Source: a virus
Length of the DNA: 28,297 nt
Direction: 5' to 3' (one strand)
IMG/VR virus record: IMGVR_UViG_3300017748_000092
Span: 1-28,297 of that record
Each line of letters starts with the position of its first letter. Positions within the stretch are counted from its first letter, which is position 1. Positions 4,326 through 24,000 of the stretch are shown here, piece after piece. Under the pieces are notes generated by a model. The model ran no database searches and was not told where the DNA came from. It saw nothing but the letters and a program-made list of their open reading frames with translations. A program made the translations under genes and the position numbers.

Positions 4326-6527
4326 ATGGCAATGTTTAAAGCATTTAAGCCTAGTGGCATGGAGAAGATAGCACGTTCTATGGGCTATCAGGGTGGCATG
4401 GATAAGTTCCAAGACTTTCTGGCTACTGACCCTGCTAGGCAGCAGCAGATGGATATGTACACCAACAAGGCTGCTCAAATGGCTAAAGGTGGTATGGTTA
4501 AGATGCAGACGGGTGGTACACTACCTGCTAACCTGCAGCCATCTACTGCGCCTATGAATGCACCTGCTGGTCAGTATTCTGCTACAGGACAGCAAGGAAT
4601 ACCTATTGCTACACCCCCAACTCCATCAGGAAAAGGGCCGGGTGTAACTGATTTTACTGTACAGCAAATGTATAGCCCCGGTGTACCTGTTGGTGGTGAA
4701 ACTGTAGCACAAACAATGGGTCAGACATTTGACCCAACACAATATGTTGCTCCGGGTACAGGCACACTGTATGGTCAGGTTGCTACACCTACAGCAATGG
4801 CACTGACTGCACAGGCAGGACAGCCAACAACTACACAAGCAAATACAATGCAAGCAGCAACTGCAGCACCTGCTGTAGACAGTGCAATGAATGCTACGCA
4901 AGCGGCTCAAGCTAACCCACAAGACCCACGCTCACAAGTAACTGCTGCACAGCAGACTGCTTCATCTGTAGGCAATCTACAGGCTGCGCAGGGTAATGCT
5001 ATCCTTATTAACAATCCCGTACAGCGTCAAATACAACAAGGTGAATTGGTTAGTGGCACAGGTGTTGATGCTACTAAAGCTGCACAGGTAACTGCACAGA
5101 CACAGGCTGCTGCAGCTACAGCTAACCCTAGTCAGCAAACTATGGTAGCTAATCAGCTTGATGGCTTGATGCAGCAGTTTCAAGGTGGTCAACCACCAGC
5201 ATGGGCTGCAGGGGCTATGCGCAGTGCTACAGCGGCTATGGCTGCTCGTGGTATGGGTGCGTCATCTCTTGCTGGACAGGCTATTGTACAGGCTGCTATG
5301 GAATCAGCGATGCCTATTGCAATGGCAGATGCACAAACAGTAGCCAAGTTTGAATCACAGAACTTGTCAAATAGACAGCAATCAGCAATGTTGGCTGCAG
5401 AGCAACGTGCTAGGTTTATGGGTCAGGAGTTTGACCAGACATTCCAAATGAAGGTAATGAACGCTAGTAAGATTAGTGACATTGCCAACCAGAACTTTAC
5501 AGCAGAGCAACAAGTACAGTTAGAGAACTCCCGTGCTGCTAATACAATGAACCTGCAGAACTTGTCTAACTCACAGGCTCTTGTGATGGCAGAAGCCTCT
5601 GCACTAGCACAGTTAGATACAGCTAATCTAAGTAATCGTCAGCAAGCAGCAGTACAGAATGCACAGAACTTCCTGCAAGTTGACATGGCTAACTTGTCTA
5701 ATCGCCAGCAGACTGAACTGTTCAAAGCACAGCAGCGTACACAAGCACTGTTTACAGACACTGCCGCTAGAAATGCTGCGGCACAGTTTAATGCATCTAG
5801 CCAGAATCAGGTTGACCAGTTCTTTGCTAACCTGTCTAGCCAAGTGTCTCAGTTCAATGCTACACAGCAGAACGCACAGTCACAGTTTAACGCAGGTCAG
5901 ACAAATACAATTGCACGTTTTAATGCTGAGTTGAATAATCAACGTGACCAGTTCAATGCACAGAACCAGCTTGTGATTGCACAGGCAAATGCACAGTGGC
6001 GTAGACAGATTGCTACTGCAGATACTGCTGCAGTTAATCGTGCTAATGAATTAAATGCTTCAGCTATTCTGGATATTAGTAAGACAGCTTATGATAATCT
6101 GTGGAACTACTACGCTGACACAATGGAGTGGGCATACTTGTCTGCTAACAATGAACTAGACAGATTAAATAACATTGCCGTTGCAGAATTAAGTGCTTCA
6201 GCACAATCTGATGCAGCAAAAGCTGCTAAAAGTTCTTCTGCAGGTAGCGCACTTGGTGGGTTAATCGGCACTCTTGGTGCGGCAGCTATTACAAAATGGT
6301 GCTGGGTTGCTCGTGAAGTATATGGACCACAAGATTACTCATGGATTGTATTTCGTAATTGGATGTTTAATAAAGCACCTAAATGGCTATATAATCTATA
6401 TGGTAAACACGGTGAATCATTTGCTAAATTTATTAGTAATAAACCCTTGCTTAAAAAGGCAATTAAGTGTATAATGGATAAAGTGGTACAGAACCACAAA
6501 ATGGAGTATAAACGTGCCTCTAACTAA
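4326..6527 (+). CDS. Large Gln/Ala/Asn-rich virion protein with hendecad repeats
   Basis: A 733-aa protein. Residues 1-60 are a compact start (FKPSGMEKIARSMGYQGGMD) ending in AKGGMVKMQTGG. Residues about 65-290 are low-complexity Ala/Gln/Thr/Pro-rich. Residues 346-477 are built of six 22-residue units led by NLSNRQQ or variants. Residues 487-556 hold seven 11-residue units led by QFNA or variants. After a short helical region and a Gly/Ala-rich hydrophobic stretch (about 640-657) there is a C-terminal module beginning CWVAREVYG, with conserved aromatic residues and APKWLYNLYGKHGE. The codon bias and position fit a structural protein. A fibrous, ejection or tape-measure-like role is inferred. 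Confidence 0.78.
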   Translation: MAMFKAFKPSGMEKIARSMGYQGGMDKFQDFLATDPARQQQMDMYTNKAAQMAKGGMVKMQTGGTLPANLQPSTAPMNAPAGQYSATGQQGIPIATPPTPSGKGPGVTDFTVQQMYSPGVPVGGETVAQTMGQTFDPTQYVAPGTGTLYGQVATPTAMALTAQAGQPTTTQANTMQAATAAPAVDSAMNATQAAQANPQDPRSQVTAAQQTASSVGNLQAAQGNAILINNPVQRQIQQGELVSGTGVDATKAAQVTAQTQAAAATANPSQQTMVANQLDGLMQQFQGGQPPAWAAGAMRSATAAMAARGMGASSLAGQAIVQAAMESAMPIAMADAQTVAKFESQNLSNRQQSAMLAAEQRARFMGQEFDQTFQMKVMNASKISDIANQNFTAEQQVQLENSRAANTMNLQNLSNSQALVMAEASALAQLDTANLSNRQQAAVQNAQNFLQVDMANLSNRQQTELFKAQQRTQALFTDTAARNAAAQFNASSQNQVDQFFANLSSQVSQFNATQQNAQSQFNAGQTNTIARFNAELNNQRDQFNAQNQLVIAQANAQWRRQIATADTAAVNRANELNASAILDISKTAYDNLWNYYADTMEWAYLSANNELDRLNNIAVAELSASAQSDAAKAAKSSSAGSALGGLIGTLGAAAITKWCWVAREVYGPQDYSWIVFRNWMFNKAPKWLYNLYGKHGESFAKFISNKPLLKKAIKCIMDKVVQNHKMEYKRASN
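5361..5993 (+). repeat. 66-bp then 33-bp periodic repeats coding for 22/11-residue units
   Basis: Within the 733-aa protein, units begin at residues 346, 368, 390, 412, 434 and 456 (exactly 22 apart; leading residues NLSN, EFDQ, NFTA, NLSN, NLSN, NLSN). Then [QR]-[FA]-[NF]-A recurs at 487, 498, 509, 520, 531, 542 and 553 (exactly 11 apart). Eleven residues is the hendecad, three helical turns, typical of right-handed or straight helical bundles. The DNA copies have diverged, so this is an old protein repeat rather than a recent DNA expansion. Confidence 0.85.
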
Positions 6528-6738
6528 TCCAGCAGCAATCATACATCAAAATTTAATTAGGTCTATGGAACAAGTAAAACCTTCTTCTACACAGCCAAAG
6601 AAGAATGGATTATTAACTCCTACAAGACCTGCCTCAACCGCTAAAGAAACAGATGCAAATAATCCAATTAATCGTGTAGCTACATACGTAGATACTATAC
6701 GTAAAAAACGTGAGGAACTTAAAGAAAATGGCAGTTAG
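6514..6738 (+). CDS. Small basic Pro/Thr-rich protein, GTG start
   Basis: A 74-aa protein beginning at GTG 6514, with GGAG at 6503-6506 inside the end of the upstream gene; it overlaps that gene by 14 bases. The N-terminal third is helical, the middle (KPSSTQPKKNGLLTPTRPAS) is probably disordered, and the end (NPINRVATYVDTIRKKREELK) is an amphipathic, highly charged helix. No family recognised. It is tightly packed between virion-protein genes and is likely a small virion or assembly protein. No ATG gives this frame, so the GTG start is needed. Confidence 0.65.
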   Translation: MPLTNPAAIIHQNLIRSMEQVKPSSTQPKKNGLLTPTRPASTAKETDANNPINRVATYVDTIRKKREELKENGS

Positions 6739-7246
6739 AGAACAGCCTTCTTTTGATATGCCTATTTCGGGTCAACACATGACTGTCGAACTAGGTGGTA
6801 GACCGTGGCAGCAACCACCACAATACGCTACTGTGGAAGAAGCATTAGATTATTATATTCCAAGCCTTGAATCAGAAGAAGTGTCAACACAGCTTCTTGA
6901 TGTGCTTGAAATGGGTATTCCTGTTACTAGCGTAGCTAATGCTATGCAAACTGCTAGTGTTATGGATGGCAAACACAGCGTTGACGTTGGTGTACTTGTA
7001 CTACCTGTACTTATTGAAATTATTATGCTTATTGCTGACACAGCAGATATTGAGTATGTATCTGGTCTTGAGCCTGATAAGAGTGTGATGGATAAAACTT
7101 TGATTAATAAAGCAATCCGTAAGTACGAACAGGAAAAAGAAAAAGAAGATGAGCCGTTGGAAGATACAGGCGTAATGACAGCTATTGAAGGTCTGCAAGA
7201 AGAGCCAGAAGAAAAAGCTGGTGGTCTTATGTCACGGAGTAAATAA
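6728..7246 (+). CDS. Putative virion protein with C-terminal GGLMSR
   Basis: A 172-aa protein; I prefer ATG 6728, preceded by AGGAACTTAAAG, over a GTG 18 bases upstream. It contains GGRPWQQPPQYATVEEALDY, then a region with two hydrophobic helices (TSVANAMQTASVMDG and GVLVLPVLIEIIMLIADTAD) that could sit in a membrane, then an acidic KEKEDEPLEDTG linker and a final GGLMSRSK. Proteins of this size and pattern recur among structural genes of marine podoviruses and myoviruses. It overlaps both neighbours (10 bases upstream; TAATG downstream). Membrane contact during genome delivery is possible but unproven. Confidence 0.72.
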   Translation: MAVREQPSFDMPISGQHMTVELGGRPWQQPPQYATVEEALDYYIPSLESEEVSTQLLDVLEMGIPVTSVANAMQTASVMDGKHSVDVGVLVLPVLIEIIMLIADTADIEYVSGLEPDKSVMDKTLINKAIRKYEQEKEKEDEPLEDTGVMTAIEGLQEEPEEKAGGLMSRSK

Positions 7247-9342
7247 TGGCAATATTTGGTTTAGGCAATTTTGGTGAAGGTTTTGTTGAAGGTCTTGCTA
7301 CGTCTGCTAACAAGGCTTTGCAAGATGATATTAGACGTATTAATCTTCGTGCTGAGAAGGTTGCTGACTTCCAAGTGAAACGTACTGTAGAGGCACAAGA
7401 GAAACGTAAGAAAGACCTAGAAGAAATTGAAGATGCTTTGCGTGAAGCTGAAGGGATGTTTGATAAAGATGACCCACGTGCTGCTGCATACGCTGCCAGC
7501 TTACTTGAAGAGCAAGGTTCTGCATCTGCACTGAAAGCGTTTACTAAACAAATAAAAGACAGCGATGTGTATAAAAGTGGTCAGAGCCTAGCCAACTTTA
7601 TGGAGATGGCTGAGAAGGATATGCCTACTGGTACACGCAGTGATTATGCAAATGCATTTCTTGGTGCGCCTTCATTGCCTACAGATTATCGCTTACCAGA
7701 AAGTGCGGCATCTGCTGGTGCTGGTAACTTGCTGGATGCTATTGGTCTTAAACCTGATGTGTCTGCAATGGTATCTGAACAGGTATCGGAGCAGATGTCA
7801 GCTATGGGTGTCGCTGAACAAGCAGAGATTACTGTGTCACTGCCTAGTGGTACATTTATGAAAGAGAAGTTTACGATGGGTAATATGACACCATCTAAAC
7901 GGCTAGAGTATTTGAACCAGCAGCTTGCCAATCCTAACAATACCCCAGAACGCATTACCGAACTTCAAGGTATTCTTACCACAGCACAGGATGCGGTTTA
8001 TGCAACGGGCAAAGAAGAGGATAAACTTACAGTTGTTGAAAGCAAAATTTCTCGTGCAGAAGGTGCTGAACGTGAAAGTTTGATTAAAGAGGCTGGTAAT
8101 CTTAGACGGGCAATTAAACTTAAAGAAGCCGAAATGAAGAAAAAAACTGAGCCACTTGCCTTTTTAGATGCTCAAATTGATATAGCATTAGCAGATGCTT
8201 ATGAAACTAAAAACTTTGACACATATAATAAGTTGAAAAAAGAACGTGACAGCATTGGTAAGCCAGTAGACCCTAAAGCTGAAATAAAAGAAGCAAAGCG
8301 TGAATTAGCAGTTAAGGTTCAGAATGGATTAGACCCAAATAGTAAAGAATATAAAACTGCTCTTGCCGCTATTCGTCAAGACGAAATTATGATAGACCGA
8401 ATATATGGAGAAGGTGGTGAATTAGACCTTACTGCAGCAAAAAGTATTGCTGGATTTATGCAAACTTCTATTGATAATGACATTTCAGAAAAACTTACAG
8501 GTGAACAAAGAGATTTGTTTAATAAAGCTAGTGATGCGTTAAGCCAGTATGGTGGCAGTCAGGAAATGTTTAAAAAGACAGACCCTGTTTTATATAAACA
8601 GTATATGGATATTGTTGCAGCAAATAGAGATATACAAAATGCTGCTATAGAAAGGTTCTTATCTAATATAGATGAATCAGATAAGAAAAATAGAACTAAT
8701 GCGCTGTTTGCTGCTCAGTCGGCATTTAACTACGGTGGTGAGGCACAAGCCGCTGCTGCACAAGCTGTGTCTGAAGGACAGGGTGATGGTGCTTTTGTTA
8801 CTGGCGGTGAAGCACCTGTGGTTGGTGCTGAAGGTGAAGTCGTTGATGCAGTATCTGCAGCCAGCTTAAAGAAAAGGTTTTCTGATGATGAAGCTGGTGC
8901 AAATAAAATGGTAAATGCTATTCTTCGTAGCGGCATAAACATGGAAGATGCAATAGCGGATGCTACAGAAAAAGGATATAGCCCTGCTTTCATATCAGTA
9001 CTTGAAAAATACAGAGGTGCTGATTCCATCGTGGATAAAATGGCTATTGAAGATGCTGGTATGGAAACAGACAAAGATGAAACAACACAAGTTATGGACA
9101 TTGTAGGCCGTTTTCATAGTAGTGCTTTAGCACCTAACATTGTAGCGCAACCAAGCAAAGTTAACAGGCTTGTTAGAGAAGCACTAGGTCTTGGTAATAC
9201 AGACAGAGATAAAGAACGTGCTAATGAAATTATTGAACAAGCAAGAGTAAAGTTGGTTGAAAGAGATAGAAAGCCAAAAGATACTAATAGAAGAGCATCA
9301 AGAACAGGACGGGCTAATGGCGGCTTAATGTCAAGGGGTTAA
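7246..9342 (+). CDS. Putative internal virion protein, coiled-coil rich
   Basis: A 698-aa protein starting at a TAATG overlap with the upstream gene. It opens with a Gly-rich amphipathic segment (AIFGLGNFGEGFVEGLATSA), then a long charged coiled-coil-like region (residues 30-75 and again about 260-390). The middle is mixed helical, an acidic Ala/Gly-rich linker lies at about 500-540, and the protein ends in RANGGLMSRG. No enzymatic motif found. Size, helicity and position between other large virion genes resemble the internal or ejection proteins of T7-like podoviruses, but no homology to T7 gp14-16 can be claimed by eye. Confidence 0.75.
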   Translation: MAIFGLGNFGEGFVEGLATSANKALQDDIRRINLRAEKVADFQVKRTVEAQEKRKKDLEEIEDALREAEGMFDKDDPRAAAYAASLLEEQGSASALKAFTKQIKDSDVYKSGQSLANFMEMAEKDMPTGTRSDYANAFLGAPSLPTDYRLPESAASAGAGNLLDAIGLKPDVSAMVSEQVSEQMSAMGVAEQAEITVSLPSGTFMKEKFTMGNMTPSKRLEYLNQQLANPNNTPERITELQGILTTAQDAVYATGKEEDKLTVVESKISRAEGAERESLIKEAGNLRRAIKLKEAEMKKKTEPLAFLDAQIDIALADAYETKNFDTYNKLKKERDSIGKPVDPKAEIKEAKRELAVKVQNGLDPNSKEYKTALAAIRQDEIMIDRIYGEGGELDLTAAKSIAGFMQTSIDNDISEKLTGEQRDLFNKASDALSQYGGSQEMFKKTDPVLYKQYMDIVAANRDIQNAAIERFLSNIDESDKKNRTNALFAAQSAFNYGGEAQAAAAQAVSEGQGDGAFVTGGEAPVVGAEGEVVDAVSAASLKKRFSDDEAGANKMVNAILRSGINMEDAIADATEKGYSPAFISVLEKYRGADSIVDKMAIEDAGMETDKDETTQVMDIVGRFHSSALAPNIVAQPSKVNRLVREALGLGNTDRDKERANEIIEQARVKLVERDRKPKDTNRRASRTGRANGGLMSRG

Positions 9343-9344
9343 TT

Positions 9345-12300
9345 ATGGGCGTATTAGACCAACTTCTGGACGAAGAAGACCAGCAGCCTGTAGTTAAACC
9401 AACTCCTGCGCTGGAAACACAGCAAGCTATTCCAACTGAAGCACCTAAGAAGGTGGGTGTTCTTGACCAGTTGTTGGAAGAAGAAAACGAAGACGTAGCT
9501 GCTGCTAAAACAAACAAGAACATTGTAACAAACTCTGCTGTACAAGAAGCTGCTATGCGTTTTGCAAAAGAACGTCTTGGCATGACAGAAATTAGTTCTG
9601 CAGATGCAATGGATGAGTTTGTTGAACACTTCCGTGAGTTTAATGTAAATGAATTAACTGCTGCAGGTGACTATCGTTATGTGTCTGCAGCCGCTGCTGA
9701 TGCCACTAAACGTGGTGATGAAAAGGCAGCACAGCGTTTATCTGACTACAGATTACTGTATCAAACATTCAGTGAGATGCCTAGCTTCTCAGATGGATTC
9801 TGGAAGGCTACAGGTGATTACGCTGAAGGTATTCTAAAAGCCCCATCAACGTATGTTGGTCTAGCACTTCCCGGTGCTGGTAAGGCTAGTGGCATAGCTG
9901 CTACCCAAGCAGCAAAGCAAGCTGTAAACAGAACACTTGCTCAAGCACTCAAAACTCCCGTAACAACACTCGCATCAAAAGCTGCAGCTAACCCAATCAA
10001 GACAGCAGTTTTGGTTGAAGGTACTGCTGGTACATTGCAAAACATTGCAGCGCAAAAGACAGAGATTGAAGCTGACTTGCGTAAAGAATATAACCCGACT
10101 GAAACAGCACTTGCCTTTGGCCTAAGTGGTGCGCCTGTTGGTGTGCTTGGTGTACTTGCTAAAGGTAAAGCAGAGAAAGCAATAGAAGCTGGCACGGATG
10201 ACATTGTTGCACAGGCTACTGAAGCTGTGGCTAAAGCAGACGAAGCTGCACTAGAAAAAGCTACAGAAACAATAGCAAATAATAGAGTGCTTGCTAGAAC
10301 CGTAGCTGGCGCACTTAACCCACTTGACCCAGAACTGGTTGCGAAAGGTAAAGGTGCTATCAAAGATGTAGCGGATGAGAAAGATTTAACACCTGACTTT
10401 ACCATATCACTAGATGAAACCAGAACAAAGCGCATCTTTGCAGCAGCAACTGACATCTTATCAAAGCAAGAAGGTGGATTACTTGATGGTGAACGTGTCA
10501 CTGAGGGTGTTGCTCGTATAATCAGGGGAATGGACGAAAAGAAAGCTGACTCAGGATTAGATTTCTTAAAAGAAACACTTGAAAAGTACAACATAACGCA
10601 TGATGACTTAGCTAATATGTTTATGGCTGATGTGTCAGATGCTGCTCGTAAGCTACAACAAGCAGGTGCATCATCTCGTGTGTTCAAGCGGCTAAACTCT
10701 GTTGCTTCAGACAATCTTTTTGCACTTGATGATGTAGCTAAAGAAAATGTTAAGAAAGTTGCTACAGCATTAGATGAAGCTGACCCACGTAAGGCACTTG
10801 AAGCTACTAAAAAACTAGAAGGTAAAGAAGCTGGTGTAGGTGCATTTGTTCGTGCGCTTGATACTGCACGTCTAGCCTCTATGACATCACAGACAGCTAC
10901 AACAATTCGTAATACTGTATCTGGCTACACTCGTGTTGGTATTGATACGGTTGTTACAGCTATGGACAGAGGCATTGCCTCATCATTGAAGGTAGCGGGT
11001 AAAGGTAAAGACAAGGTTGGTCTTGGTAGTATTACACCTAACGAAGACATCTTTGCTCTTACCTACGGTCTAATAAATAAGAAGGAAGCAAAAGCTGTAA
11101 CTGAAATATTTGATATGGGCTTTCATACCAAAGCCACAGGTCTATTCAGAGAACTGCAGGACATTGATCCTAAAGGTGCATCTGGTTCAGCTAAGATTGA
11201 AAAGCTACGTGCTTATGGCAAGGAACTAAACAGACTTAATACATTGTCAGATAATATGTTTAAACGTGCAGCATTTGTTGGTTCATTGAAAAGACAATTG
11301 AACGAACTGTACAATGTAAAAGGTGGTAATGTAGAAGACTTTAACCTTGTTAATATCATCAAAGAAGGTAAATTTAATTCAGTATTTGATACAAAAGAAG
11401 GTACAAAGGCTCTTGATAAAGCAGTAGAAGATGCATTGTATTTTACGTATCAAAAGTCACCTGACAGACCAGTCTTCCGTGCTATCATTCAAGGTATTCA
11501 CAGCGCACCATTCCTGACAACATCTCTAGTACCATTCCCCCGGTTTATAGCAAACGCTATGCGCTTTACCTATGAATACTCACCTCTGTATCTGCTGCAA
11601 GGTGGCGCACGTTCATTTGCTAAAGATGCAAATAACTACGAAGAAGTATCAAAGGCTCTTGTAGGTACAGGATTGCTTGCTGGTGCATACGCATTTAGAA
11701 GCAGTGAAAATGCAGGTGAGAACTGGTACGAATACAAGATGGACAATGGCAAGACATTTGATATGCGTCCTTTCTTCCCTGCTGCACCTTATCTGTTTGT
11801 AGCTGATATGATGAAACGCTATCGTGAAAACGACCCATTGTTTGGCGATAGAAGTTTCTTGACAGATTCAATTCAGGCACTGACAGGTACACAGTTCCGT
11901 GCTGGCTTCGGTATCTACGCCATCGACAGTGCGCTAGAAGATTTAGCTAAAGATGATATTGATGCAAGCGAAAAGGCAGCTAAACTTGCAGCTAACTTTG
12001 GTGCAAACGTAGTAAGCACATTTACAATACCACTTACAGCAGGACAGGATTTGTATAACACATTCCTTGCACCTGACGATGAATTGATTGTACGTCAGAC
12101 TGAAACATCTAACATCTTTGATTTGATTGTAAACAAGTCACTTGCTCGTGTACCAATGAACTATGCACTAGAAAAGTATTTGGCTGAACACATTGGCTAT
12201 AACGCACCAGAGATATATGAAGTTCCATCTAAGGCAGAGCCTATGCGTAGGCAGCTTCCTCTTACACGTCAGCTTACAGGTGCTTTGCTAAGAGAACGTC

Positions 12301-12749
12301 GTAACTTCTTAGAGGATGAATTAGCAAGGCTGAAGATTACAAGACGTGTGCTATCAGCTAAGACAGGTGTGCCTGAAGCTGACCAGTTAATCAACACGCT
12401 GATTGGTGAGTACGCTACTGATTATATTGTGCCGACATTACAGAAGAGTGATAAGTACAAGAATATGCCAGCAGATGAACAAGCCTTATATATTAAAAAT
12501 GTAATTAGTGATTACAAGGGTGACATTATGGACTTGGTTAAAATAATGGCTAAGTCTTCTGGTAAAGATAGATACGGCTTTGACCCAATGGAACGTGTAG
12601 CATTTAAGAAACTAAATGATGTTGCAAAGCGTAAAGCCTATGAAGAGTACCACGAAAGGTTTGGTGAACCAAAAGAGGGTGAGTTCTACGATTATGAAGT
12701 ACTCACCCAATTTGGAAAATTCTTTGATAAGGTTTTAGATTTACGTTAA
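9345..12749 (+). CDS. Large putative internal virion / DNA-ejection protein
   Basis: A 1134-aa protein, the largest and last of the plus-strand module. GVLDQLL[DE]E occurs twice at the N-terminus (residues 2-8 and 38-44) within an acidic Pro-rich tail. Residues about 160-300 are Ala/Gly/Val-rich helices with a hydrophobic stretch (LAFGLSGAPVGVLGVLAKGK), as in membrane-active ejection proteins. The rest is alpha-helical and charged, with a Pro- and aromatic-rich region around 780-830 (FDMRPFFPAAPYLFVADMMK). No lysozyme or transglycosylase motif is evident. It ends with TAA sharing bases with the stop of the opposing MazG gene. Ejection function is inferred from size, composition and gene order. 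Confidence 0.72.
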   Translation: MGVLDQLLDEEDQQPVVKPTPALETQQAIPTEAPKKVGVLDQLLEEENEDVAAAKTNKNIVTNSAVQEAAMRFAKERLGMTEISSADAMDEFVEHFREFNVNELTAAGDYRYVSAAAADATKRGDEKAAQRLSDYRLLYQTFSEMPSFSDGFWKATGDYAEGILKAPSTYVGLALPGAGKASGIAATQAAKQAVNRTLAQALKTPVTTLASKAAANPIKTAVLVEGTAGTLQNIAAQKTEIEADLRKEYNPTETALAFGLSGAPVGVLGVLAKGKAEKAIEAGTDDIVAQATEAVAKADEAALEKATETIANNRVLARTVAGALNPLDPELVAKGKGAIKDVADEKDLTPDFTISLDETRTKRIFAAATDILSKQEGGLLDGERVTEGVARIIRGMDEKKADSGLDFLKETLEKYNITHDDLANMFMADVSDAARKLQQAGASSRVFKRLNSVASDNLFALDDVAKENVKKVATALDEADPRKALEATKKLEGKEAGVGAFVRALDTARLASMTSQTATTIRNTVSGYTRVGIDTVVTAMDRGIASSLKVAGKGKDKVGLGSITPNEDIFALTYGLINKKEAKAVTEIFDMGFHTKATGLFRELQDIDPKGASGSAKIEKLRAYGKELNRLNTLSDNMFKRAAFVGSLKRQLNELYNVKGGNVEDFNLVNIIKEGKFNSVFDTKEGTKALDKAVEDALYFTYQKSPDRPVFRAIIQGIHSAPFLTTSLVPFPRFIANAMRFTYEYSPLYLLQGGARSFAKDANNYEEVSKALVGTGLLAGAYAFRSSENAGENWYEYKMDNGKTFDMRPFFPAAPYLFVADMMKRYRENDPLFGDRSFLTDSIQALTGTQFRAGFGIYAIDSALEDLAKDDIDASEKAAKLAANFGANVVSTFTIPLTAGQDLYNTFLAPDDELIVRQTETSNIFDLIVNKSLARVPMNYALEKYLAEHIGYNAPEIYEVPSKAEPMRRQLPLTRQLTGALLRERRNFLEDELARLKITRRVLSAKTGVPEADQLINTLIGEYATDYIVPTLQKSDKYKNMPADEQALYIKNVISDYKGDIMDLVKIMAKSSGKDRYGFDPMERVAFKKLNDVAKRKAYEEYHERFGEPKEGEFYDYEVLTQFGKFFDKVLDLR

Positions 12750-22326: not shown

Positions 22327-23077
22327 ATAAATTCTCCATATCTGTCGGGTTACGATATTTCAAGTCATCATTCAAACGTAGTACACGAACATCGTTCACA
22401 TGACCACGTAGTTCCTTTGCCATCTGCAAAGTCTTCGGTAGTGCATCGGGGTCTAATGCAATTACGGCTGTTGAGAACTGTGCGAGATACCCTTTATGCG
22501 ACTCTTGCAGAGATGTACCAAGTATCGCAACCCCGACAAAGGATTTGCCACCAACCACGGCTGCACTCACACAGTCCTCAACAACAACTGCGACTTTACC
22601 ACAACCATGTGTGTATGGCAAGCCACTTTTTCCATATCGTTTCCATTTAGGTAATCGCTTACCAATGGCACGACCAGTACCATCAACAATTTTACCTTCG
22701 TGCATGATAGGAAAAACAATTCTGTCTTCCTTTACATCATACATGACACCTAAATCATCTGGGTCAAGTTTGTATCCGTAACAAAATGACAACACAGTAC
22801 GTTTCTTTCTGTGAGGTATAATGTATTGAGGCAATTCAAAACTATCTTCGACAAACTCTTTTGCCCCACTAAACCCAGCACGTATGTCATCAATAGACAG
22901 ATGTACACGTGTACCGCCCTTAGAACCACAAGATACTTTGTAACAATTCCATACAAGTGACCCCATGTTATTGGTCACTGTAAATGTATTATACCCACCA
23001 CAGTTAGGACAATTCATCCTTTTTGTAGTTCCATTAGGTATATCTATATCACTTATAGTGTTATATATATTATTCAT
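22307..23077 (-). CDS. DNA primase (zinc ribbon plus TOPRIM), T7 gp4-like
   Basis: A 256-aa primase that makes RNA primers for lagging-strand synthesis. Zinc ribbon: C23-x2-C26 (MNCPNCGGYN), C45 and C50 (WNCYKVSCG). The RNA polymerase basin includes DRIVFPIMHEGKIVDGTGRA and the basic KRLPKWKRYGKSG. The TOPRIM metal residues are E167 in VVVEDCVSA and D209-x-D211 in IALDPDA. The start overlaps the integrase stop (ATGA). A strong promoter lies in the end of the integrase gene, so primase to polymerase can be expressed apart from the integrase. Confidence 0.92.
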   Translation of the reverse strand: MNNIYNTISDIDIPNGTTKRMNCPNCGGYNTFTVTNNMGSLVWNCYKVSCGSKGGTRVHLSIDDIRAGFSGAKEFVEDSFELPQYIIPHRKKRTVLSFCYGYKLDPDDLGVMYDVKEDRIVFPIMHEGKIVDGTGRAIGKRLPKWKRYGKSGLPYTHGCGKVAVVVEDCVSAAVVGGKSFVGVAILGTSLQESHKGYLAQFSTAVIALDPDALPKTLQMAKELRGHVNDVRVLRLNDDLKYRNPTDMENLYGIITD

Positions 23078-24000
23078 GTAATATCACTTTCCTTTGCGGC
23101 ACTTGCTATGCTTATACCATGAGATTTTCTAGCTGTCAATGCACTATCTGCACTTGACAACGTATTTTTTAAGTATGGTTTTACCGAAGATGGATTAGCG
23201 TGTCCTGTAACCGACATAATTTGTGCCATACCGACACCTGCCTCAACCATTTCAGTTGTACCAGTCCTACGTAAATCCGACAGACGTAAATCTTTTGATA
23301 GACCAACATCATCCATCAATTTACGACCATGCAAAGGTAACTTATACATACTGTAAGGTATATACTGACCATTTACAGGATTGGGTCTTGGTGCAACATA
23401 TTTTTGAAAACCGAAGTCTTGTTCTTGTTGTTTAAGCATCTCAAACAAATCCTCTTCAATAGGTAAGTGTACCTCTGCTTTACGCTTAGACTGCTCTATA
23501 TAAACAGTACGTGCTTCAAAGTCTATTGCATCCCATGTAAGCAGACGCATATCGCCAAGACGCTGACACCATTCGTATGCCATGTGAGCAATCAAACCTA
23601 TGTTACGGGTGCTAAAATCGCTGTAGGCGGCGTTTAATAGCTTCTGTACATCTTCCCTACACCAAATTACCTTACGCCTGTCAGCGGCTCTTTTACGCAC
23701 GTTAGCGAAGGGATTAATCATACACATTTCCATACGCAAACCATGATTAAAAATAATACGGGTGACAGATAGCAGATGATTTGCGGTTGCAATACCCCTT
23801 TCACACCAGTCATTGTATGCAACTTTTGCTACACGTGTAGGTAATGTCTTGTAGTTGTATTGGCAGAGGGGCTTGCCCTCTACCTTTGTGTTTAGCATGA
23901 CATTCAAAAGATACTTATAATGAGATTTAGTTTCATCACGTATGTTCTTGAAATCATAGGAAGAATAGTAATCTTCCACCAGTTTAGATAACTGTGACAT
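23074..24000 (-). CDS. int: Tyrosine recombinase / phage integrase
   Basis: A 308-aa protein with a SAM-like N-terminal DNA-binding region (1-105) and a catalytic domain. R147 is in CQRLGDMRLLTWDAID, K172/K174 in QSKRKAEVHLP, R244 in LSDLRRTGTTEM, H267 in SVTGHANP and the nucleophile Y276 nine residues later (KPYLK). The usual first histidine of H-x-x-R is Ser241. It could integrate the genome or resolve multimers. No attP or excisionase was recognised. The gene sits inside the replication operon, between DUF932 and primase (one-base and four-base overlaps), unlike the isolated int-att unit of many temperate phages. Confidence 0.92.
   Translation of the reverse strand: MSQLSKLVEDYYSSYDFKNIRDETKSHYKYLLNVMLNTKVEGKPLCQYNYKTLPTRVAKVAYNDWCERGIATANHLLSVTRIIFNHGLRMEMCMINPFANVRKRAADRRKVIWCREDVQKLLNAAYSDFSTRNIGLIAHMAYEWCQRLGDMRLLTWDAIDFEARTVYIEQSKRKAEVHLPIEEDLFEMLKQQEQDFGFQKYVAPRPNPVNGQYIPYSMYKLPLHGRKLMDDVGLSKDLRLSDLRRTGTTEMVEAGVGMAQIMSVTGHANPSSVKPYLKNTLSSADSALTARKSHGISIASAAKESDIT
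23111..23139 (-). promoter_or_regulatory. Sigma70-type promoter for primase-helicase-polymerase
   Basis: On the minus strand TTGACA (23139-23134), 17 nt, TATAAG (23116-23111), within the C-terminal codons of the integrase. The -10 is 34 bases from the primase ATG (23077), which matches the distance seen at the other candidate promoters. Confidence 0.65.

Follow-up and report, generated by a model that had tools for sequence, protein, structure and literature searches.

Among phage DNA-delivery proteins, hendecads and length steps of eleven residues are not new: they have been described in the phiX174 pilot protein and in the tape-measure proteins of siphophages. The H protein of phiX174 forms a decameric alpha-helical tube with hendecads and with a lumen in which Asn, Gln and Arg predominate, and its hendecads are only three in number and are followed by heptads (PMC7354561). 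The injection protein gp12 of Sf6 assembles into decamers that have a coiled-coil stem (PMC4755594), siphophage tape-measure proteins gain and lose 11-residue units whole (PMC3271669), and in the tape-measure protein of TP901-1 phase counts for more than side chains (PMC5099701). Given the hendecads of the H tube and of siphophage tape-measure proteins, the opinion of the first-pass annotation that hendecads are unusual for a phage structural protein is not supported. The ejection genes of podoviruses cluster with the largest gene last (reviewed in PMC8954989), and LPD38 is a domain of proteins thought to be injected together with the DNA (PMC5512222). HMO-2011-type phages reportedly rank with the most abundant virus groups known from the ocean (PMC6918029), and yet their entire ejection-like cassette is annotated as hypothetical. 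We found no earlier account of ejection-like cassettes of podoviruses that encode a long hendecad array with an Asn ladder.

The window, by which we mean the whole stretch of 28,297 nucleotides analysed here, is a fragment of an HMO-2011-type podovirus, as judged by its PolA (76% identity to that of Puniceispirillum phage HMO-2011), the shared gene order and the related structural genes. It encodes a 733-residue repeat protein (Table 1) that aligns with gp25 of HMO-2011, annotated as hypothetical, at 63.5% identity over 99%. The family is present in 27 of 50,697 phage records, which include HMO-2011, Roseobacter CRP phages, Pelagibacter HTVC phages, Rhizobium and Sinorhizobium phages, Vibrio CHOED, Aeromonas and Pseudoalteromonas phages and one uncultured podovirus, and many more relatives are found in uncultured phages beyond these records. 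Searches of PHROGs, Pfam and NCBIfam with the 733-residue protein gave no match, a tape-measure family included, and neither did a profile search of the PDB. A homologue at 58% identity is encoded on a contig binned as Rhodobiaceae bacterium MED766 (L251, PAHC01000002.1), which is possibly a phage contig in the MAG or a prophage. In the window itself, an integrase-like reading frame seen by eye beside the replication genes (23074-24000, minus strand) suggests possible lysogeny.

What can safely be said of the protein is that it contains a long hendecad helix under phase selection, with two hydrophobic faces and an Asn ladder, and that its gene is part of an ejection-ordered cassette. We propose that it is a DNA-ejection (pilot-type) protein of an HMO-2011-type podovirus whose hendecad helix forms an extensible tube. 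We hold this best single reading with about even confidence, and it is the ejection part that carries most of that weight: a role in ejection is probable, and the tube specifically, suggested by analogy, is a tentative possibility.

Table 1. Positions in the window of the hendecad protein, its parts and the genes of the cassette that follow it.
Feature	Position	Strand	Basis
733-aa hendecad protein, homologue of HMO-2011 gp25	4326..6527	+	open frame; 63.5% identity to gp25
N-terminal head, residues 1-60, helical, ending AKGGMVKMQTGG	4326..4505	+	pLDDT 70-75 (residues 11-50); conserved in close homologues
Low-complexity Pro/Gly/Gln/Ala/Thr linker, residues 61-287, length very variable in homologues	4506..5186	+	pLDDT mostly 30-50
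Pre-array segment, residues 288-335 (PAWAAGA...AARGMGASS...PIA)	5187..5330	+	nearly invariant columns
Hendecad array, residues 336-588, ~23 units in one register, Asn = column 11	5331..6089	+	repeat analysis
Longest predicted unbroken helix, residues 459-634	5700..6227	+	AlphaFold2 model m5dac6ee2a8e2, pLDDT ~44-78 per ten-residue block
Gly/Ala-rich hydrophobic segment, residues 639-655, AGSALGGLIGTLGAAAI	6240..6290	+	highest hydropathy of the protein, 1.52 over 17 residues
Optional C-terminal CWVAREVYG module, residues 659-733, four-helix mini-domain	6300..6524	+	pLDDT 87.7 when modelled alone
178-aa partner, strong hydrophobic segment VGVLVLPVLIEIIMLIA at residues 93-109	6710..7246	+	homologue downstream in 137/137 eligible loci
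698-aa protein, gp15-like position, fast evolving	7246..9342	+	homologue downstream in 79/121 eligible loci
1134-aa protein, gp16-like (last) position	9345..12749	+	homologue in 89/101 eligible loci

The first-pass annotation had described the repeats as two exact series without insertions, NLSNRQQ-type units of 22 residues and then QFNA-type units of 11 residues, with a two-residue shift of the leading position, taken as a possible joint, where the former give way to the latter. The motifs are present at the residues assigned to them (NLSN at 346, 412, 434 and 456, NFTA at 390, and QFNA-type units at 487, 509, 520, 531, 542 and 553) and insertions are absent; the units at 368 (EFDQTFQ) and 498 (QFFA) match the motifs poorly. 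Compared with shuffles, identity between residues 336 and 575 is raised at lags of 11 (z=6.3), 22 (z=8.3), 33 (5.9), 44 (6.0) and 55 (3.3). The Asn of column 11 is found at residues 346, 379, 390, 401, 412, 434, 445, 456, 489, 511, 522, 533, 544, 555 and 577, that is, in 15 of 23 rows, always at 346+11k and never out of step. The NLSN and QFNA halves are in phase with each other, as 489 - 346 = 143 = 13 x 11, and a single 11-residue register runs from N346 to N577, the period of 22 being an alternation within it in the first half of the array. The two-residue joint was rejected as an artefact of naming, the NLSN half having been read with N as its leading residue and the QFNA half with Q. The array is also longer than the 346-556 claimed for it, since the repeats begin at residue 336 and end at 588. 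In the homologue of Podoviridae isolate ctYwJ313 (L084:5345-7936), which carries the annotation 'huntingtin', a label presumably owed to glutamine-rich repeats, lag-11 periodicity extends across most of the 863 residues.

A column profile over 46 non-redundant family members shows Ala/Leu/Phe in column 1 (~81%), Ile/Val/Met/Ala in column 7 (~75%), often Phe in column 10, and Asn in column 11 of 70% of hendecads family-wide. According to our reading of the helical wheel, the large-hydrophobic columns (7 and 10) and the alanine columns (1 and 8) form two faces about 140 degrees apart, and the Asn ladder runs between them. The second harmonic of hydrophobicity exceeds the first family-wide (1.11 and 0.27, respectively); in the window protein alone the p values are <5e-5 for the second and 0.16 for the first, and most members are alike. 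The hydrophobic residues form two faces and not one stripe, a pattern that is also seen in alpha-barrels, the phiX174 H tube being an example. Two-faced helices suit side-by-side packing into a barrel or a sheet, while a single stripe would be expected in ropes of two to four strands and in helices on lipid surfaces.

The hendecad periodicity and the long helical element proposed at the outset are both borne out, as residues 331-667 are devoid of proline, only two glycines lie between 331 and 639, and AlphaFold2 (45 homologues) predicts helices throughout the array, one of them unbroken (Table 1), at modest confidence and with no globular core. Of the two findings that the first-pass annotation had named as grounds for refutation, homologues without the periodicity at this position and a globular predicted fold over residues 346-556, neither was obtained. 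The model is a low-confidence monomer (pTM 0.25) and bears on no oligomer. Searching the PDB with the full model by Foldseek returned nothing useful, and the same search of BFVD returned relatives and a weak 'DNA transfer protein' (E 0.038) that was set aside, the rmsd being very large.

The surroundings of the gene point to DNA delivery. In the mapped cultured relatives the hendecad gene is followed by at least one, mostly small, gene and then by proteins of ~164-192, ~365-930 and ~800-1670 residues, the cassette closing the late operon or lying close to its end. The 178-aa family occurs in the same 27 cultured-phage records as the hendecad protein. The order of a small, a medium and the largest ORF follows the ejection-operon rule (PMC8954989), and in both cassette order and gene sizes the locus resembles Sf6 gp12 and the gp7-gp20-gp16 and gp14-gp15-gp16 sets of P22 and T7. 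Likeness to P22 extends to the P22-type coat of HMO-2011 and, as in gp7, to the C-terminal Gly/Ala hydrophobic tail of the hendecad protein, a tail that is weaker in some homologues. Unlike the P22 and T7 sets, the hendecad protein precedes the 178-aa protein, so that large or mid-sized genes number four and not three. Comparisons by hhalign and profiles with P22 gp7, gp20 and gp16 and with T7 gp14, gp15 and gp16 gave no match (for the P22 gp7 family, phrog_598, none in 13 records at E<=10 and an hhalign probability of 0.5%), nor did comparison of the 1134-aa family with T7 and P22 proteins, and lag-11 periodicity in the ejection proteins of P22 and T7 is never above z=2. An AxGxxxS-like segment in proteins at the gp7 position of P22 resembles, by eye only, the pre-array segment. 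The 1134-aa protein starts with MGVLDQLLDEE and a near-repeat, VGVLDQLLEEE, follows slightly downstream (window 9345-9500).

Two further links lead to ejection. The last gene of HTVC033P (gp52) carries LPD38, and its N-terminal part matches the 1134-aa family of the window. In addition, a DNA-pattern scan found the CWVAREVYG module to be widespread at the extreme C-terminus of many unrelated uncultured-phage proteins, most of them without these hendecads (loci L248-L370), and in the carriers that were mapped its gene opens a cassette that continues with at least one medium gene and a large one. The cassette of L266 ends in a gene that matches phrog_770 (E 9e-15), to which the DNA-transfer protein gp16 of P22 belongs, and that of L312 ends in a gene that contains LPD38. 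It is gene order, the module links and LPD38, and not homology, from which we derive a role in DNA delivery. Among the uses that had been envisaged for the array, a fibre, a needle or a channel, a channel for DNA delivery seems the most plausible given the gene order and the links through module and neighbours. We found no published virion proteome of HMO-2011 relatives in the literature, and the hendecad protein is a putative virion component.

We propose that the array would form one continuous hendecad alpha-helix of ~250 residues, ~38 nm long if straight, presenting large residues (columns 7 and 10) on one face and alanine (1 and 8) on the other, with the Asn ladder on the narrow side. Helices of this kind would be expected to assemble laterally into an oligomeric barrel, with a putative lumen, rather than to wind into a two- or three-stranded rope. 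The protein would exit through the portal as an extended chain and assemble into an envelope-spanning tube, the wall of which would be rich in amides, the Gly/Ala hydrophobic segment may help to engage the membrane, and the genome would then travel through the tube. The tube is suggested by analogy with phiX174 H (PMC7354561) and Sf6 gp12 (PMC4755594). Like H, the window protein has hendecads, is rich in Asn and Gln, carries a Gly/Ala hydrophobic segment at one end and belongs to a DNA-delivery context. Unlike H, a protein of a tailless ssDNA phage, it has hendecads throughout the array (~23), and it shows no sequence homology to H (hhalign 0.3%). In a comparison of its register with that of the H tube, which has low power, two registers were tied, and the assignment of the Asn ladder to the lumen is a weak one.

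The first-pass annotation had named a fibre first among the possible uses, and one rival to the tube is a trimeric helical tail fibre or appendage, with the hendecads as its three-stranded shaft and the C-terminal module as its trimerisation or tip domain. The hendecad gene does come after the tail-fibre genes, and the homologues of CRP-3 and CRP-738 (L082, L087) end in Peptidase_S74 (PF13884) with scores above the cut-off. Peptidase_S74 is a trimeric fibre chaperone that is usually found on tail fibres. However, both homologues are in ejection-gene position, and S74 ends are also carried by annotated or positional ejection proteins, those of Salmonella 7-11 (gp20), Pseudoalteromonas H6/1 (gp17) and Pseudomonas AH02_11 (a search for relatives of the H6/1 protein in viral contigs confirmed none). 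Moreover, a lysis cassette intervenes between the fibre genes and the hendecad gene in Rhizobium phages, the pairing with the 178-aa hydrophobic protein is constant, and the helix has two hydrophobic faces instead of one. We therefore consider a fibre unlikely. The C-terminus is the CWVAREVYG module in 19 of 67 scored homologues, an S74-like signature in 2 and a hydrophobic tail only in 46, and the fixed role that had been ascribed to the module is at odds with its absence from about two thirds of homologues and its replacement by S74 in some; it is an optional, swappable end.

Returning to the extensible tube, the way in which the array varies in length is informative. Length was measured between two conserved anchors, the proline of SxPIA (P330) and the tryptophan of WR (W558), which lie 228 residues apart in 127 HMO-2011-type homologues. 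The shorter classes are 151 (phiM6, RHph), 162 (HTVC033P, CRP-738), 173 (CHOED), 184 (Slicky01, MQM1) and 217 (L058, L059), which lack seven, six, five, four and one hendecads, respectively, and the longer class is 316 (HTVC103P, HTVC115P), which has eight more. All six differ from 228 by a multiple of 11, with no exception among the scored homologues, for which the chance by our own arithmetic is ~(1/11)^6 if the classes are independent. CRP-3 was missed by the search pattern and anchored by hand (162), and two other complete sequences that lack one anchor were left unscored. In an anchor-free check on 13 distant members, 91 of 235 alignment gaps were multiples of 11 where ~21 are expected. 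The periodicity stands at the same place in homologues, and its phase is kept down to ~31% identity. In 110 complete sequences the array is invariant in length, and in the HMO-2011 clade as a whole it hardly ever changes, whereas the stretch N-terminal to P330 ranges from 278 to 765 residues with 70 distinct lengths. Among cultured relatives, the largest genomes are not those that carry the longest arrays. Based on the steps of exactly 11 and on the constancy of the array as compared with the variable part that precedes it, we conclude that the phase of the helix is under selection. The steps also make a sharp prediction, as deletions of 11 residues should be tolerated and those of 5 residues should not.

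Three module carriers of uncultured phages (L270:4489-7701, L301:4774-7104 and L290:1339-3315) have hendecad arrays of their own (lag 11 z ~9). They share with the window protein the hendecads, the same C-terminal module and the first place in an ejection-like cassette, and L270 and L301 also share the Asn ladder, with Asn in 36 of 38 and 19 of 20 consecutive units, respectively; they show no clear similarity to the window family outside the repeats and the module. The arrays of L270 and L301 differ by 198 = 18x11 residues, which agrees poorly with a tube whose length is matched to the envelope. It is conceivable, though doubtful, that in several marine podovirus groups an extensible Asn-laddered alpha-helical barrel is the main wall of the injection tube, its length set in whole hendecads (~13 to 45 units) and its ends swappable (CWVAREVYG, S74 or a hydrophobic tail). 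If true, the barrel would be the equivalent, in a short-tailed phage, of both the phiX174 H tube and the tape-measure protein, and one building principle would link the ejection proteins of podoviruses with the pilot tube of phiX174 and the tape-measure proteins of siphophages.

Length in whole hendecads could also befit an internal capsid core, spacer or ruler that acts by its length, in the manner of a tape-measure protein, and is itself no conduit. The window family resembles the tape-measure proteins in gaining and losing exact 11-residue units (PMC3271669), phase outweighs side chains in TP901-1 (PMC5099701), and exact multiples of 11 are seen both in the window family and in L270 and L301. 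Against a ruler, array length does not vary within the HMO-2011 clade, the protein matches no tape-measure family, and the marker residue of the window family is Asn, unlike the Trp/Phe of tape-measure proteins. Furthermore, podoviruses have neither a long tail nor a tail tube to measure. Taken together, we regard a ruler as rather improbable.

Repeats of 11 and 22 residues are classical for lipid-binding helices and a Gly/Ala hydrophobic segment follows the array, as might be expected if amphipathic 11-mer helices lay on membranes as they do in apolipoproteins and synucleins. Such an arrangement is very unlikely, since the array lacks a single hydrophobic stripe, as judged by its first harmonic, and is poor in charged residues (of 253 residues, 18 are Asp/Glu and 18 Lys/Arg).

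At the level of DNA, the identical NLSNRQQ copies at 434 and 456 differ in 5 of 7 codons and Tandem Repeats Finder detected no array, which indicates that the repeats exist at the protein level and are old; a DNA-level tandem repeat was rejected on the same two grounds. A low-complexity or replication-slippage repeat with no structural meaning, as the Gln/Ala/Asn-rich composition of the array might imply, is hardly credible in view of these diverged silent sites, the phase kept among distant homologues and the steps of 11.

The C-terminal module of the window protein, when modelled alone, folds confidently into four short helices, for which the PDB holds no convincing match (best Z 3.6). The CFI-box C-terminal domain (NF041770) aligns with it over the full profile at 16.3 bits, the curated cut-off being 40, and weak CFI-box matches occur in 45 of 59 module members; judged by sequence, the module seems to be a remote phage counterpart of the CFI-box domain of bacteria. 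Peptidase_S74 (PF13884) was not detected in the window protein, and the possibility that the module is part of an S74 domain was rejected, as no S74 signature precedes it in 153 carriers. Short motifs recur in the co-encoded proteins: the 178-aa protein has a C-terminal GLMSRSK (GLM(A/S)R in most homologues), the 698-aa protein a C-terminal GGLMSRG, and the 733-aa protein contains KGGMVKMQTGG. The short motif common to the three is possibly a sorting signal.
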